Assembly (NCBI RefSeq): GCF_003946095.1
Contig: NZ_RHOD01000004.1
Span: forward strand, 1 to 64,000
Length of the DNA: 64,000 nucleotides
Direction of reading: 5' to 3'
Source of the DNA: Levilactobacillus lindianensis
Lineage (GTDB): Bacteria; Bacillota; Bacilli; Lactobacillales; Lactobacillaceae
Shown here: positions 15,958 to 47,753 of the stretch, one piece after another
Layout of the letters: each line of letters begins with the position of its first letter
How positions within the stretch are numbered: the first letter of the stretch is position 1
The notes under the pieces: generated by a model
Told to the model about the DNA's origin: nothing
Databases searched by the model: none
What the model saw: the letters and a program-made list of their open reading frames with translations, nothing else
Program-made: the position numbers and the translations under genes

Positions 15958-15979
15958 AATTTTATCAGTCGATAAAATT
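15958..15979. repeat. Perfect 9-bp inverted repeat between gntK and gntP
   Basis: AATTTTATC (15958-15966) and GATAAAATT (15971-15979) are exact complements around AGTC. There is no T-run, so it may be an mRNA stability or processing hairpin separating gntK from gntP, or an operator for a promoter in the 175-bp gap. Confidence 0.6.
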
Positions 15980-40378: not shown

Positions 40379-42121
40379 TTAATCATGATGGCCCCGGTCC
40401 AAGTCGTAGAGGGACCGGAAACGGGCGTTGTCGCGATAAAGTTCCGCGGGCGTCCCTTGCATATCGAACTTACCATCTTCGATGAAGCGAACCTGATCGA
40501 CGTGATTAATCCCAGCCAAATGGTGGGTAACCCAGATAATTGTCTTGTCCTTGAGCACGTCGAAAACCGTATCCAATAAATGCTGTTCCGTGATTGGATC
40601 TAGGCTGACGGTCGGTTCATCTAAGATGATGATAGGAGCATCTTGTAGCAAGATACGAGCCAGTGATAAACGTTGTCGCTCCCCACCGGAGAATCGGCTA
40701 CCGGCCTCTTGCACTTGGGTCTCGTATCCCATGGGCAACCGAGAGATCAGGTCATCCAACTCCACGGCCTTGATGGCCGCTCGGACCTGTTCGTCAGTTG
40801 CATTCAAGTTCCCCAAGCGAACGTTGTTCATGACGGTCGTATTGAAGAGGTATGGCTGTTGGTCCAGAACGCCAAAGAGTTGCGCCCGTTGCTGCTGTAA
40901 GGCCGCCACTGGGACCCCATTGAGCTGGACCGTTCCTCGCGTTGGGGCTTCATCCCCCAGAATTAATTTCAACAACGTGCTCTTCCCGGTGCCACTGGGC
41001 CCCAGCAAGGCTAACTTTTCACCAGTGTGAACTGTCAGTGACAAATCACGGAGAACCTGACGCTTGGCTTCGGCATACTGGAAGTCAACGTGATCAATGG
41101 CTAACGTCTCAAAGCCAGCGATGGTCTTCTGAGAAATCTGCTTCGGTTCAGACTCATCCAACGCATTCACCCGTTGAATGGAATCCCGATAGACCGGCCA
41201 CTCACTGACCCCCTGGCTCATATCGGCAAAGGGTTCCACCGTTGGAAAGAGGGCTAACCCAAAGGCAGCGACCCAGTTGGCCTGCGCCTGACTACCGGTA
41301 AATGTCAGTCCAGCCCACCAGACGATGAGGATGACCGCCGTCCCGAAGATCACCTGAATCGCAAAGTTACGCCACCATTGAAAGTGATGATCATGCCGCC
41401 GTAACGCCGCAATCTGGTCGATCGGAGCTTCTTGTTGATCCAGAAAGTCCTGCCGTCGACCGGAAATTAACCAGTCCCCTAATCCTAAAACGGAGTCGGT
41501 CAATTGCGTGTAGAAGCCCCGTTGAATCTGCCGGGCTTGGAATTCTCGCCGACCGTTTACTGCGACCGACATTAGAGGCATGACCATAACAATAACCCCC
41601 AGCAAGACTAACATTAGCAGGCCAAACGCCCAGTTGAAGTAGCCGATGCCGATAACGACAAACAGGTACAGCAACCAACCAATCACTAATGGAAAGACGG
41701 TTCGTAGATAGAGATTCTCAATATGATTGATGTCTTCGGCCAGAATGCTCAGGACATCCCCCGTTTGATGCGTCTGGCGAATGGCGACCGCTTGCTTTTC
41801 CACGGCCTGGTACAGTCGCTTACGAAAGTCTGAAACGATCCGTAAGACCCAGTTATGACTAGTCAACCGCTCCGCGTAACGGAAGGCTGGCCGCCCGATC
41901 CCAAAGGCGCGTGCCAAAACAATCGGAACGTAAATCATCAAAATATTATAGGGATGGGTTGCCGCCCGGCTAATCAAATAGCCCGAGTTAAACATCAGCG
42001 CCCCACCACAGAAGAACGTCATGAACCCTAAGAAAAGCACCAAAGCCAATAGCTTACGATAGCGGCGTAGATACGGCATAACCCAGTGATCGTGCTTAAA
42101 TGTTGCAAAGAAGCCTTTCAT
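40379..42121 (-). CDS. cydC: CydC-type heterodimeric ABC transporter subunit (cytochrome bd assembly)
   Basis: 580 residues: an N-terminal six-helix membrane domain (about 1-310) and a C-terminal ATPase with Walker A G-P-S-G-T-G-K-S-T near 374-382, signature F-S-G-G-E-R-Q-R near 478-485 and Walker B I-I-I-L-D-E-P. CydCD exports cysteine/glutathione, or heme in newer work, and is needed for cytochrome bd maturation. The start overlaps the end of cydD by 4 bp. A bidirectional terminator ends the operon. Confidence 0.93.
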   Translation of the reverse strand: MKGFFATFKHDHWVMPYLRRYRKLLALVLFLGFMTFFCGGALMFNSGYLISRAATHPYNILMIYVPIVLARAFGIGRPAFRYAERLTSHNWVLRIVSDFRKRLYQAVEKQAVAIRQTHQTGDVLSILAEDINHIENLYLRTVFPLVIGWLLYLFVVIGIGYFNWAFGLLMLVLLGVIVMVMPLMSVAVNGRREFQARQIQRGFYTQLTDSVLGLGDWLISGRRQDFLDQQEAPIDQIAALRRHDHHFQWWRNFAIQVIFGTAVILIVWWAGLTFTGSQAQANWVAAFGLALFPTVEPFADMSQGVSEWPVYRDSIQRVNALDESEPKQISQKTIAGFETLAIDHVDFQYAEAKRQVLRDLSLTVHTGEKLALLGPSGTGKSTLLKLILGDEAPTRGTVQLNGVPVAALQQQRAQLFGVLDQQPYLFNTTVMNNVRLGNLNATDEQVRAAIKAVELDDLISRLPMGYETQVQEAGSRFSGGERQRLSLARILLQDAPIIILDEPTVSLDPITEQHLLDTVFDVLKDKTIIWVTHHLAGINHVDQVRFIEDGKFDMQGTPAELYRDNARFRSLYDLDRGHHD

Positions 42122-43854
42122 TTCACCGTCGCCCCTTCCATCTCTGACCGTAATCTGACATAGGCCCCGTTTTTCTCCTGCAATTCCGCGGGTGTCCCCT
42201 GTTCAACAACCCGGCCGTGATCCATGACCAGAATATAATCCATTTCATTCATCCAATGTAGACGGTGGGTCGCGAAGAAGACCAGATGGTGGTCAAAGAC
42301 CGGCATCATTGTTTGCTTCAAACCCACTTCGGTCTCAATATCCAAGTGCGCCGTGGGTTCATCAAGCAACAACACCCGCCGCGAGTCGTCCAGAAAGGCT
42401 CGGGCCAACGCAATTCGTTGTGCCTGACCACCACTGACGCCCCGTGAACCCTCACCAATCGCCGTCTCAAGTCCGGCAGGAAGCGTCGCAACCCAATCGC
42501 TCAGACCAGCCTTGGCCACGGCCGATTGAACAGCCACTTCACTGGCTTCGGGATCATAAAAAGTAATGTTTTCTCGGAGGCTGGCGTGAAACAAATAAGG
42601 CGCCTGCGGAATGTACACAAAACTCCGCTGCCAGGCCTGTTGGTCCAAATGAGGTACCGCAATCCCCCGGACCGTAATTTGGCCGTCCTGGGGGCTGAGA
42701 AAGCCACCTAGGGTGTTAATCAGCGTCGACTTCCCCGAACCAGATGCCCCAATGATGCCGACCTTCTGAAATCCCTTAATCTCAAAATTAATATCTTGGA
42801 GGGTGGCCTGTTGCGAATCACCATACTTAACGTTCACGTGATCGAAAGTTAAGGTGTCCTGATCTTCCCAAACCGGGTCGCGTAGTGGTAACAAGTCACG
42901 ATCCTTAGGTGTCGCCCGTTGTAAGATATCCAGAACTGCCGTTAAAGCATTCTTCCCGTTTAAGGTAGCGTGATAGTCGTTGGCAAAATTGCGAATTGGC
43001 GCAAAGTAATCTGGCGCAAGGGTCAAAATAATTAAGGCTGGCAACAGTTGAATCGTCCCATTCATCAAACCAAATCCTAGAAATACCGCAATAATGGCAA
43101 TTGACAAGGTGGTAAAGAAATCCAAGGCAAAGGTTGAGGTCATCGCAATCGTCAGCGTTGCCATGGTTTTCTTCCGATAGTCTTCACTGACCTGATAGAC
43201 GTTATCCGCATAAGCCCTATTCAAGCCCAGCTGTTTCAGGGTTGGCAGGCCGCGTAGGGTATCCACAAAGTGATTGGATAACCGTTGATAACCGGCATAC
43301 TGCCGGTCGGCCTTTGCCTGGGCCGCTAAACCCAAGATAATCATGAAGAAGATAATTAAGGGATAGATCGCTAAAAGGAACAGTGCTTCTTCCCACTTGA
43401 TAAAAGCAATATAAATCAAAATTAACCACGGCGTAATCCCCAGATCCAGAACCTTGCCGATAATCATCATGAGATAGGTTTGAATCTTGTCGATCCCTTC
43501 CAACCCCATGGTCACCACGTTCCCGGTTCCCTTCTCTGCGACGACACTCGGTCCCAGATCAAACAGTTTTGCCATAAATTGCTGGCGTAAAGTTTTCGTG
43601 GTCGTTTCCACGAATGGATACAGTAGCCAATTTTTTGATAGCGTTAACAAGTGTCGGGCTAAAAAAACGACACCAAAAAGGGCCAGCGGCATCACAATTG
43701 TTCGAATCCCCTTTAACTGCCAGAGATTGACGATGGCTTGTGATAAATACTTGGCCTGCAGGATAATCATCCCTGCCTGAATCAGAGTCAAAACCGCCAT
43801 AATCAGTGCGGCTGGCTTTACTCCAGGAAACTTAAACACCCGTTGATCAATCAA
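42118..43854 (-). CDS. cydD: CydD-type heterodimeric ABC transporter subunit (cytochrome bd assembly)
   Basis: 578 residues from TTG 43854, which has GAGGGGG 8 nt upstream; a longer in-frame reading to 43896 has no site. Six membrane helices, then an ATPase with Walker A G-A-S-G-S-G-K-S-T, signature V-S-G-G-Q-A-Q-R-I-A and L-L-L-D-E-P-T-A-H-L-D. It pairs with CydC (4-bp overlap). A 209-bp gap with a terminator separates it from cydB, so it probably has its own promoter. Confidence 0.92.
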   Translation of the reverse strand: MIDQRVFKFPGVKPAALIMAVLTLIQAGMIILQAKYLSQAIVNLWQLKGIRTIVMPLALFGVVFLARHLLTLSKNWLLYPFVETTTKTLRQQFMAKLFDLGPSVVAEKGTGNVVTMGLEGIDKIQTYLMMIIGKVLDLGITPWLILIYIAFIKWEEALFLLAIYPLIIFFMIILGLAAQAKADRQYAGYQRLSNHFVDTLRGLPTLKQLGLNRAYADNVYQVSEDYRKKTMATLTIAMTSTFALDFFTTLSIAIIAVFLGFGLMNGTIQLLPALIILTLAPDYFAPIRNFANDYHATLNGKNALTAVLDILQRATPKDRDLLPLRDPVWEDQDTLTFDHVNVKYGDSQQATLQDINFEIKGFQKVGIIGASGSGKSTLINTLGGFLSPQDGQITVRGIAVPHLDQQAWQRSFVYIPQAPYLFHASLRENITFYDPEASEVAVQSAVAKAGLSDWVATLPAGLETAIGEGSRGVSGGQAQRIALARAFLDDSRRVLLLDEPTAHLDIETEVGLKQTMMPVFDHHLVFFATHRLHWMNEMDYILVMDHGRVVEQGTPAELQEKNGAYVRLRSEMEGATVK

Positions 43855-44016
43855 AACAAACGCCCCCTCGTAACAAGTGATAACTCTTACTGTCATGATA
43901 CAGCTTTCACCGATATTTATCGAGTTAGAGTGCGCCAGCAGGCATTTCGGTGGTACGGCTTATCTCAGCCACTTGCCCTCTGACACACGTTTCGCCAAGA
44001 TGCACCTAGAGACAAC

Positions 44017-44063: not shown

Positions 44064-45074
44064 TTAAGCACTTTGCTTTGGTGAAGCCAACCGCTTGTAG
44101 AAGACCCAGTAACTCCAAATGAAGTAAACCAGGACAATCGGCAAAATACTAAAGGCTAAAATCGTCATCAATTTTAACGTGTACGGCGAACTTGACGAGT
44201 TCTTAATGAGTAATGAGAAGGCCGAGTTGTTGGCAATCATGACCCGTGGGAACAAGCCATTGAAGATGAGCACTACAACACTAATCAATGACAGCCCACT
44301 GCCGATAAATGATAGCCATTCGTGGTTTCCTAACACGCCCCAGTAAGCCAGGACAGTGAAGACCACTAAGGCCACCACAATCGCCGTCGTGGTCAATGGC
44401 TTCTTGTCAAAGAAGTCCGTGGAGAAGAACAGCAAGATGGCAAAGACTACTTCACCGGCAAATAGAACAGGATACAGAATCTTATTCCAAGATAAAGCCC
44501 GTTCTCGTAACTCGCCAGCTGTCTTCAACCGAATGAAGTTTAACCCGTGAACCAGGCAGAGGACCGTCACAGCCACCCCACCAACCACGGAGAATAGGTT
44601 GACGTAATCCAAGAAGTGCGCGGTCATGTCACCATTCTTGTCGATGGGCATCCCCGCAATCATTGAGGTAAAGAGTAACCCGAAGAGGAAAGCCGCACAG
44701 AGACTCCCGATGGTCCCAGCCCAGCCCCAGAAGTTCCGCCATTTAGCGGTTTCCATGTTGGCCCGGAATTCAAACGAGACCCCCCGGAAAATCAAAGCGG
44801 CTAGGATGAAAAACAGAATCAAATAGTAGCCTGAGAATAATGTGGCATACCACATTGGGAATGAGGCGAACATCGCCCCACCAGCCGTAATTAACCAAAC
44901 TTCGTTACCATCCCAGTGAGGTCCAATGGTCCGAATGACCACGTCCTCTTCAGCATCGTTACGCGCAAAGCTCTTAATCAGCATTCCCACACCGAAGTCA
45001 AAACCTTCAAGGAAGAAGAACCCACTGAAAAGCACTCCAATGAGGATAAACCAGAGTAATTGTAAGTTAGTCAT
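44064..45074 (-). CDS. cydB: Cytochrome bd quinol oxidase subunit II
   Basis: 336 residues from ATG 45074, which follows GAAGGGGG; upstream readings lack a site. About eight membrane helices with L-E-G-F-D-F-G-V-G-M near 23-32 and I-G-P-H-W-D-G-N-E-V-W near 50-60, both diagnostic. CydB supports the heme-bearing CydA. The start overlaps the end of cydA by 8 bp. Function requires heme, which most lactobacilli take from outside. Confidence 0.95.
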   Translation of the reverse strand: MTNLQLLWFILIGVLFSGFFFLEGFDFGVGMLIKSFARNDAEEDVVIRTIGPHWDGNEVWLITAGGAMFASFPMWYATLFSGYYLILFFILAALIFRGVSFEFRANMETAKWRNFWGWAGTIGSLCAAFLFGLLFTSMIAGMPIDKNGDMTAHFLDYVNLFSVVGGVAVTVLCLVHGLNFIRLKTAGELRERALSWNKILYPVLFAGEVVFAILLFFSTDFFDKKPLTTTAIVVALVVFTVLAYWGVLGNHEWLSFIGSGLSLISVVVLIFNGLFPRVMIANNSAFSLLIKNSSSSPYTLKLMTILAFSILPIVLVYFIWSYWVFYKRLASPKQSA

Positions 45075-46518
45075 GGTTGAACGCCCCCTTCGAATATGGG
45101 TCAATCTCCTTGTCACCTGCTGCATAACCGTCGGTATTAGCGGCATCAGGACCCGCCTTCAACGTTCGGTGACACAGAACAACCATGACAAGTCCCATAC
45201 CGGCAAACATCAGGAAGTAAACAATATTAGACGTCAGTAGCGAGGCCACTGAAACGTTTGGTGAGACGGCATCCGCGATCGTTAACAGCCCATAAACAAC
45301 CCATGGGTAACGACCAAATTCGGTGACAAACCAACCCGCGGTGTTGACCACGAATGGTAACCACAGACACAGCCCCAAGATGTACAGGAACCAGCGTTGT
45401 TTCATAATGGCTTGTGACTTCTTACGGTTCATAATTAAACCAACGACGGCCAACAGGGCAAATAAGGCCCCCGCTCCAGCCATGATCCGGAAGCTCCAGA
45501 ACAAGGTCTTGGTTGGCACGTAATAGTTCATGTCATTACCAAATTTCTTATCATACTTGGCATGTAATTCTTTATTGACTTTATTCATGCCTTTGACGGT
45601 CCCAGTCGTCTTGTGGTAACTCAATAAGTTCAAGACATAAGGAACATCGACTGACCAGGTAGACTTATGATTCTTAGTATCAAAGCCTCCAACGGCCGTC
45701 CATTCCCCTTTGTTCGTGGAATCCTTGTACAACCCTTCCATAGCAGCGAATGTCATAGGATGGTTGTTAATTAAGTAACGGGTCTGTAAGTCCCCACTGG
45801 CAATGGAACCCAGGGAGAAGATAAGCCCAATAATCAAGGCAACATTGAGTGACTTCCGGTAGAAGGTCACGTGGTCACGCTTGAGTAATCGCCATGCTGA
45901 ACAGCCGGCAATAACGAAGGCTGCGGTCACGAAGGCCCCGAAGATCACGTGAGGAAATTCGTTCCACAGTTGTGGGTTACCTAACACCTTTGAAAAGCTG
46001 ACCATCTGAACGTGACCCGTCTGCTTGTTAATGATGTAACCCAATGGGTTTTGCATAAAGCTGTTGGCCGCCAGAATCCATAGAGCGGAAAGTGAAGACC
46101 CGAACATGACTAACCAAATAAAGAGTGTGTGGATCCACTTGTTAAAGCGACCCCAGGTGAACATCCAAACACCGATGAATGTTGATTCGATAAAGAACGC
46201 TGCAAGGGCTTCAATGGCCAGTGGTGCACCGAAGATGTCCCCCATAAACCGTGAGTATTCCGACCAATTCATCCCGAATTGGAATTCTTGAATAATCCCG
46301 GTCACAACCCCAACGGCAAAACTATACAGGAACATTTTGCCCCAGAACTGTGCCATGCGTTTGTAATCCTGGTCACCCTTGATCGCATACATGGTTTCCA
46401 TGACCGCGACGACAAAGGCCAACCCGATTGAAAATGGAACGAAGAAGAAGTGAAAGACAGTGGTCATTCCAAATTGAAATCGCGCGAGGCCCAGGATATC
46501 CAGACCTAGATTTAGCAT
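45067..46518 (-). CDS. cydA: Cytochrome bd quinol oxidase subunit I
   Basis: 483 residues, about nine membrane helices. The start has A-R-F-Q-F-G-M-T-T-V-F-H-F with His23 as a heme ligand equivalent, then E-F-Q-F-G-M-N-W near 78-85 and F-G-R-Y-P-W-V-V-Y-G near 399-408. It oxidises menaquinol and reduces oxygen to water without pumping protons. The ribosome site GGGGAGG precedes ATG 46518, and a promoter with a co-centred nested palindrome lies upstream. First gene of cydAB. Confidence 0.96.
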   Translation of the reverse strand: MLNLGLDILGLARFQFGMTTVFHFFFVPFSIGLAFVVAVMETMYAIKGDQDYKRMAQFWGKMFLYSFAVGVVTGIIQEFQFGMNWSEYSRFMGDIFGAPLAIEALAAFFIESTFIGVWMFTWGRFNKWIHTLFIWLVMFGSSLSALWILAANSFMQNPLGYIINKQTGHVQMVSFSKVLGNPQLWNEFPHVIFGAFVTAAFVIAGCSAWRLLKRDHVTFYRKSLNVALIIGLIFSLGSIASGDLQTRYLINNHPMTFAAMEGLYKDSTNKGEWTAVGGFDTKNHKSTWSVDVPYVLNLLSYHKTTGTVKGMNKVNKELHAKYDKKFGNDMNYYVPTKTLFWSFRIMAGAGALFALLAVVGLIMNRKKSQAIMKQRWFLYILGLCLWLPFVVNTAGWFVTEFGRYPWVVYGLLTIADAVSPNVSVASLLTSNIVYFLMFAGMGLVMVVLCHRTLKAGPDAANTDGYAAGDKEIDPYSKGAFNHD

Positions 46519-46574
46519 TTTTCCAACCTCCCCAAACGTTTTTGGTGTGAATAAATAATTGCTATCCTGGTTTC

Positions 46575-46603
46575 ATTATATCGAGTGATAAGTCAACTTT
46601 CAA
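46575..46603 (-). promoter_or_regulatory. Promoter of cydAB
   Basis: On the minus strand TTGAAA (46603-46598), exactly 17 bp, TATAAT (46580-46575). The -35 lies inside the left arm of the palindrome at 46595-46630. Confidence 0.82.
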
Positions 46604-46630
46604 TGATTGACCATCAATATACTGAAAGTT
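46595..46630. promoter_or_regulatory. Nested palindrome at the cydA promoter
   Basis: Outer arms AACTTTCA (46595-46602) and TGAAAGTT (46623-46630) are exact complements. An inner exact repeat ATTGA-CCA-TCAAT (46606-46618) shares the same centre within half a base. The 36-bp figure covers the -35 box and upstream DNA, so it is a likely operator. It does not match the Rex consensus. Confidence 0.7.
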
Positions 46631-46805
46631 AATGGCTAATACTCGAAATAAGTCTGTGGATTGTTCGTTAACTTTCGTAACACTTTGGAGGATCTGTGCT
46701 ATTCGTTGCCAGATTTTTATTAGCGGTTCGTGAAATTATGTTCAAAAACCAGGGGATCTCGTGCTAGAATGAAAGTAAGTACAAGGTATGAGGAGGTTTT
46801 TCACT

Positions 46806-47753
46806 ATGACAGAACGAATTCTTGCCTTACAACCATTAACCACTGAACAACGGGACCGGCTAGCCAAGACGAACGTCGATATTATTGACGCCGCCGACTG
46901 GAAGTCCGCCGAACCCATCTCAATTATCTTTGGTTGGGACCCAGAAGTGGGCCCTGCCGCACTGATGGCACCCAACAACCAAGTTCGCTGGATTCAAACT
47001 ACCAGCGCTGGGATAGATTATTTACCACTTGATTGGATTCGCGCACATGACATTGCCGTCACCAATGCCAGCGGGGCCTTTTCACCGGCCATCGCTGAAT
47101 CGACTCTCGGTTATCTGCTTTACTTCTTACGTGGCTTTAACGAAGCCGTTAAGAACCAAGCAGGCCATTTCTGGCAACGGCCACTGCGAAGTGACTTGGC
47201 CATGATTGGTAGTCAAACCATCGTTATTTATGGAACCGGTAGCATCGGTCAAGCGATTGCTAAGCTCCTGAATGGCTTTGGCAATCAACCAATTGGGGTT
47301 AACCGGACTGGTCATGACGTACTAGGATTCCAGTCGGCCGTCGCCTTAGCTGATGATAGCTCGGTCATTAAAGATGCTGATATTATCATCAATGCGATGC
47401 CCGCAACCACCAAGACCGTGGGCTACTTCAACGAAAGCTTCTTCAAGCAACTCGACGGTCTCCGGATCTTCGTCAACGTGGGCCGTGGTAAGTCCGTGGA
47501 TGAAAAGGCCTTAATGAATGCGTTGCTTTATCAAAACGTCCTTCACGTCGCCTTAGACGTCTTCGAGACGGAACCTCTACCAAAAGAATCTCGTCTCTGG
47601 GACTACCCCAACGTCTTGATCACGCCGCATCAAACCGGATTCGCCAAGGATGACGAAAAACCAATCTTCGACATGTTCATGACGAACCTGCAAGGCTGGC
47701 TGAATGAGGGTAAGTTAACCGTCAACGTCACCGACCCCACCCAAGGCTACTAA
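46806..47753 (+). CDS. D-isomer-specific 2-hydroxyacid dehydrogenase family protein
   Basis: 315 residues from ATG 46806 (GAGGAGG, 9 nt spacing). The NAD-binding fold has Y-G-T-G-S-I-G-Q (141-148 region), followed by the catalytic Arg in N-V-G-R-G, Glu in D-V-F-E-T-E-P-L and His in T-P-H-Q-T-G. It most resembles the hydroxypyruvate/phosphonate-type D-2-hydroxyacid dehydrogenases of lactobacilli; the preferred 2-keto acid is unknown. A TAGAAT box lies at 46765-46770. Divergent from cydA, monocistronic, with a terminator behind. Confidence 0.9.
   Translation: MTERILALQPLTTEQRDRLAKTNVDIIDAADWKSAEPISIIFGWDPEVGPAALMAPNNQVRWIQTTSAGIDYLPLDWIRAHDIAVTNASGAFSPAIAESTLGYLLYFLRGFNEAVKNQAGHFWQRPLRSDLAMIGSQTIVIYGTGSIGQAIAKLLNGFGNQPIGVNRTGHDVLGFQSAVALADDSSVIKDADIIINAMPATTKTVGYFNESFFKQLDGLRIFVNVGRGKSVDEKALMNALLYQNVLHVALDVFETEPLPKESRLWDYPNVLITPHQTGFAKDDEKPIFDMFMTNLQGWLNEGKLTVNVTDPTQGY

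Follow-up and report, generated by a model that had tools for sequence, protein, structure and literature searches.

Which DNA element, and which regulator, governs the promoter of the cytochrome bd oxidase genes in Levilactobacillus lindianensis? The window analyzed here, a stretch of 64,000 nucleotides, carries on its minus strand the gene cydA for cytochrome bd oxidase subunit I (45067-46518, ATG at 46518), followed by cydB (44064-45146; TIGR00203 above cut-off) and by two cydCD-type ABC transporter genes, coding for a cydD-type subunit (42118-43896; TIGR02857 above cut-off) and a cydC-type subunit (40379-42121; TIGR02868 above cut-off). The listed cydB reading frame overlaps the end of cydA and its true start is probably located further in. 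A gene of the D-2-hydroxyacid dehydrogenase family is transcribed divergently on the plus strand (46788-47753). Among named records, the closest CydA proteins are those of L. humaensis (99%) and then of L. senmaizukei and L. tangyuanensis (92%). The cydA promoter is composed of the -35 box TTGAAA (46598-46603, minus strand), a 17-bp spacer, and the -10 box TATAAT (46575-46580, minus strand), giving 11 of 12 matches, and the two boxes display 84% and 100% identity, respectively, in Levilactobacillus.

The nested palindrome at the cydA promoter

An earlier note had drawn attention to a nested palindrome at 46595-46630, said to share one centre and to cover the -35 box, and had suggested that it might be an oxygen-, heme- or redox-responsive operator not described for cyd genes in lactobacilli. 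The palindrome, which has no strand assignment, is real and lineage-specific. Its outer 8-bp arms, AACTTTCA (46595-46602) and TGAAAGTT (46623-46630), repeat each other exactly in inverted orientation at the reported spacing of 20 bp, and the inner ATTGA-CCA-TCAAT repeat is present with its arms at 46606-46610 and 46614-46618. The centres nearly coincide, although with the outer one at 46612.5 and the inner one at 46612.0 they lie half a base apart, and coverage of the -35 box amounts to five of its bases being overlapped by one outer arm (46595-46602). When the 269-bp intergenic region was shuffled, 12% of the shuffles contained a comparable 8-bp dyad and 0.1% (P = 0.001) one that also enclosed a 5-bp dyad, and three nested dyads of this kind are found in the 64-kb window versus none in six block shuffles. 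Because of these shuffle rates and the three nested dyads in the window, the palindrome is mildly unusual, and it was chosen after the fact.

A phylogenetic footprint was obtained by aligning the cydA upstream regions of 36 Levilactobacillus species. Full pairing of the outer arms is maintained in 4 of the 36 and full pairing of the inner arms in one, L. lindianensis itself, and the arms reach 65-76% identity over the 36 species. If the palindrome served as operator for a not yet described regulator responding to oxygen, heme or redox state, its overlap with the -35 box, its rarity in shuffled intergenic sequence and the retention of the outer arms in the four closest genomes would be accounted for. 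However, all four of these genomes encode CydA proteins at least 98.5% identical, in three of them the inner arms no longer pair fully, outer pairing elsewhere drops to 0-6 of 8 positions, and one arm coincides in part with the -35 box, whose conservation has a separate cause. We consider such an operator very improbable and, as the repeat is not conserved in close relatives, which the earlier note itself had named as refuting, the candidate was rejected. Judged from these alignments, the palindrome is a species-level accident without an established role.

A conserved 14-bp dyad between the -35 and -10 boxes

From the same footprint it is evident that other elements are conserved, namely the -10 box, a 14-bp dyad, the leader that separates the promoter from the start codon, and a distal block some 180 bp ahead of that codon. 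The leader GATAGCAATTATTTATTCACACCAAAA (46540-46566, minus strand) has a mean identity of 85% over the 36 species; in it, AGCAATTATTTATTYACAC followed by AACGTTTGGGGAGG is near-invariant, beyond what a ribosome-binding site needs. The dyad TTATCACTCGATAT (46578-46591, minus strand) sits between the -35 box (46603-46598) and the -10 box (46580-46575), overlapping three -10 bases, and differs from the consensus TTATCRNNYGATAA by one mismatch at the final base. Its mean identity over the 36 species is 99%, versus about 47% in a nearby background stretch, and its distance to the -10 box at cydA is fixed throughout Levilactobacillus. The idea of a heme- or redox-responsive cydA operator undescribed in lactobacilli fails for the flagged palindrome but is supported for this different, putative FhtR-type heme operator, which is located just outside of it and is absent from the earlier note.

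CydA was searched in 151 Lactobacillaceae genomes and the upstream regions were then read. The cydA dyad recurs in 9 of 24 sampled genera, and the view that it is specific for Levilactobacillus was rejected when this wider search of the family found the same dyad in other genera. In Secundilactobacillus and Lactiplantibacillus, cydA is preceded by the same 14 bp as in Levilactobacillus, in Companilactobacillus by the variant TAATCATATGATAA, and in Leuconostoc, Convivina and genus g39 by the perfect-consensus form TTATCRNGTGATAA. Shuffled sequences yielded 0.001 exact and 0.015 one-mismatch matches to TTATCRNNYGATAA per sequence and, when compared with its reversed control in 22 genomes, TTATCRNNYGATAA was enriched in most genomes from outside Levilactobacillus (11 versus 0 in g39). 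Regulon work was done by pattern searches. A Levilactobacillus regulon defined by the exact 13-mer TTATCASTYGATA was discarded, with only cydA clearly recurring and the other matches being chance-like, and a literature search for TTATCAAGTGATAA matched no paper.

Regulators known to act on cytochrome bd operons were also considered. In other Gram-positives, cyd genes are subject to regulation by Rex, and CcpA and ResD likewise exert transcriptional control of the operon there, although through other sequences and in response to other signals (NADH/NAD+, carbon and oxygen, respectively). That Rex or CcpA controls cydA through the repeats described here would be in line with the cre-like sites that 13 of 36 species carry ahead of cydA, versus a rate of 0.9% in shuffles. 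However, the window species has no cre site, Rex-like matches are scattered and carry 2-4 mismatches, and both the flagged repeat and the dyad are unlike either consensus. For the Rex operator TTGTGAANNNNTTCACAA, the best match in the window species has 4 mismatches and none is found at the flagged site, as the earlier note had stated, or at the dyad. Rex was rejected as cydA regulator for lack of convincing sites in the consensus scan and CcpA as explanation due to its sites being restricted to 13 of 36 species and absent from the window species; the scans for both leave the dyad unexplained and we assign hardly any probability to this reading. CcpA may act additionally at cydA in some species (cre-like sites in L006, L008, L009, L010, L012, L017, L020, L021, L023, L026, L027, L033 and L035).

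A candidate FhtR-type regulator

In Enterococcus faecalis, the heme efflux genes hrtBA are kept under repression by FhtR, a heme sensor of the TetR family (Saillant et al., 2021; PMC7858072). EMSA and mutation established its binding to two 14-nt palindromes in the -35/-10 region of hrtBA, P1 TTATCAATCGATAA and P2 TTATCGATTGATAA, and heme bound via Tyr132 releases it from DNA (PMC7858072). The consensus TTATCRNNYGATAA, which was defined after seeing the data, yet before this paper came up, covers both published operators.

Homologs were sought with a Vagococcus TetR gene as query, which adjoins hrtBA and has two dyad sites. The L. lindianensis genome contains a sole match to it, full length with 32% identity and an E-value of 1.9e-23 (C34:87033-87614), in a gene for a protein of 199 amino acids (G000:C34:87018-87617, minus strand) on the window's own contig, about 40 kb away. 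The alignment, made with the Vagococcus protein in place of E. faecalis FhtR, covers residues 6-196 of the former, and in the cited literature enterococcal proteins with less than 40% identity are regarded only as potential FhtR orthologs. Among the genome's 14 TetR proteins the homolog gives the best TetR_N match (PF00440, E 1.7e-18). At the column of Vagococcus Tyr132, tyrosine is present throughout the FhtR set (32 of 32 sequences) and, among the 13 other TetR proteins of the genome, in one; this number, counted along the Vagococcus protein, is that of the published heme ligand of E. faecalis FhtR. A PDB sequence search returned mostly TetR DNA-binding-domain matches and no named FhtR.

The system of the window species resembles FhtR-hrtBA of E. 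faecalis (PMC7858072) in the 14-nt palindrome TTATCRNNYGATAA in the -35/-10 region, in a TetR-family regulator with tyrosine at the position of residue 132, and in the lack of an operator at the regulator gene itself. It differs in that the putative conserved target is cydABCD, probably together with ndh, and not hrtBA, in that a single operator copy is present at cydA versus two at E. faecalis hrtBA, and in that the regulator, only about 32% identical to the Vagococcus homolog, is encoded between a clp-type ATPase gene and rpoB (neighbours named from reading the sequence) and not beside hrtBA. As no operator was found near the homolog's own gene in the window species, the link between regulator and operator rests on co-occurrence.

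In 70 genomes that have cydA and an upstream region that could be read, an operator was scored when at most one mismatch to the consensus was present. Operator and homolog occur together in 27 genomes, the homolog only in 6, the operator only in none, and neither in 37 (Fisher p = 6e-14), these genomes being phylogenetically non-independent and the homolog cut-off having been set after seeing the data. Counted by genera, the respective numbers are 9, 2, 0 and 13 (p = 4e-5). Admitting weaker homologs to E <= 1e-10 gives 27 genomes with both, 10 with the homolog only, none with the operator only and 33 with neither, four genomes having moved out of the last class into the second. Two of the six genomes with only the homolog possess a two-mismatch form of the dyad at the same position, and genera g19 and g6 have the homolog without a clear cydA site.

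Heme-responsive repression of heme efflux by a TetR-family protein is also known from HrtR-hrtRBA of Lactococcus lactis, and FhtR shows no significant identity to HrtR (PMC7858072). As in that system, hrtBA-like genes of the L. lindianensis genome (L302, G000:C65) have an HrtR-like TetR gene directly upstream, and no TTATCRNNYGATAA site was found near hrtBA-like genes in the examined Levilactobacillus genomes. Their own HrtR-like TetR gene and the missing FhtR-type site suggest that these genomes may possess two heme-sensing TetR proteins with separate targets.

Dyads at other genes and a proposed model for heme control of respiration

In all 30 Levilactobacillus species examined (30/30), a one-base variant of the dyad, TTTTCRNNYGATAA, is located just upstream of the -10 box of ndh, the NDH-2 gene, at a distance to the -10 box that differs from cydA. 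In many species the ndh promoters (L351-L380) also contain, further upstream, a GTGAA stretch, a Rex-like half site. Dyads were found upstream of hrtBA, encoding an HrtB-type permease and an ATPase, in three genera (Lactiplantibacillus, g24 and g3), with two copies in G076 and in Vagococcus, and upstream of katA, the gene for heme catalase, in two genera (g7 and g39). For katA, site and homolog occur together in 4 genomes, the homolog only in 6, the site only in none and neither in 24 (p = 0.0045), so that 6 of 10 katA genes in FhtR-positive genomes are without a site; in E. faecalis, transcription of katA is not induced by heme (PMC7858072). Genes for FhtR homologs themselves are preceded by dyads, three exact ones in G089 and one each in G077, G134, G073 and G105. 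The three TTATCRNNYGATAA sites of G089 (L341) are in tandem directly upstream of the homolog gene, and they likely serve autoregulation, unlike the constitutive fhtR of E. faecalis. The dyad-bearing genes named so far serve in using and handling heme.

Other exact matches were observed. Outside of cydA, the L. lindianensis genome contains two exact TTATCRNNYGATAA matches versus one control match and, given these numbers, neither is claimed as a target. One is located 354 bp upstream of a nox gene and the other (15962) lies within the window at the gene for a GntP-type permease, where TTATCAGTCGATAA occurs exactly at 15962-15975, 54 bp upstream of the reading frame, probably by chance. Several surface-protein genes of g39 and g7, whose products have a signal of the KxYKxGKxW type, carry an exact TTATCRNNYGATAA 90-260 bp upstream (L238, L239, L242, L249, L253 and L275).

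The conserved spacer could in principle reflect a property of the promoter itself, for instance DNA shape or an extended -10, rather than operator function, and a dyad situated almost wholly between -35 and -10 at a fixed distance to the -10 box of cydA would be compatible with that. This is nevertheless highly improbable in view of the ndh variant at another -10 distance, the variable position of the dyad at hrtBA, katA and fhtR, and the way in which the dyad tracks the regulator gene. A binding site for another protein, for example a different TetR or an oxygen/redox sensor of the Crp-Fnr type, with a convergent match to FhtR operators, deserves more consideration. Different regulators use recurring short palindromes, boxes of the PrfA type share the 14-bp, N2-centred geometry of the dyad, and nox genes occur near some dyad sites. 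However, the dyad matches two EMSA-proven FhtR operators, zero operator-positive genomes are without the homolog, and operators lie upstream of some of the homologs themselves, all of which makes a different binding protein rather unlikely.

We therefore favor an FhtR-type repressor that probably blocks cydABCD until it binds heme. From sequence comparison we infer DNA binding, heme binding and the direction of control for the FhtR homolog; a dyad across the spacer and the -10 box fits repression. In the absence of heme, the apo-repressor would cover the spacer together with the upstream end of the -10 box, RNA polymerase would be excluded and cydABCD would be off. Heme entering the cell would bind to the conserved tyrosine, the repressor would be released and the heme-dependent oxidase would be made. 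In Levilactobacillus, ndh for the type II NADH dehydrogenase would probably be under the same control. Control of cyd or ndh by FhtR was not found in the literature searched.

The distal block of the footprint corresponds to a second dyad, TAACACATTNNNNAATGTGTTA, present in the window as a degenerate copy (46678-46699, minus strand) about 181 bp upstream of cydA and matching neither the Rex nor the CcpA consensus. Exact ACACATTNNNNAATGTGT sites in Levilactobacillus occur at cydA, at nox and in a few other places, with zero matches to the reversed control pattern. The nox site belongs to an NADH oxidase gene that is divergent from a dipeptidase-like gene, and L. lindianensis has an exact copy there (L401 1501-1518).

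In its widest form, the proposal is that in much of the Lactobacillaceae an FhtR-type sensor directly gates aerobic respiration (cydABCD, and ndh in Levilactobacillus) and, depending on the genus, heme catalase and heme efflux, with heme as the on-switch where it comes from outside, and that a second operator, TAACACATTNNNNAATGTGTTA, co-controls cydA and NADH oxidase in Levilactobacillus; this statement as a whole could equally well prove right or wrong. Many lactic acid bacteria respire only when supplied with heme, and heme combined with menaquinone has a stimulating effect on Lactobacillus brevis (PMC2696406). How oxidase expression is tied to heme found no answer in the literature searched, and a specific operator and regulator make this question directly testable, which may be of use for starter cultures grown under respiration. 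If true, the proposal would extend FhtR from a regulator of enterococcal heme efflux to one that governs respiration in a far broader range of bacteria.
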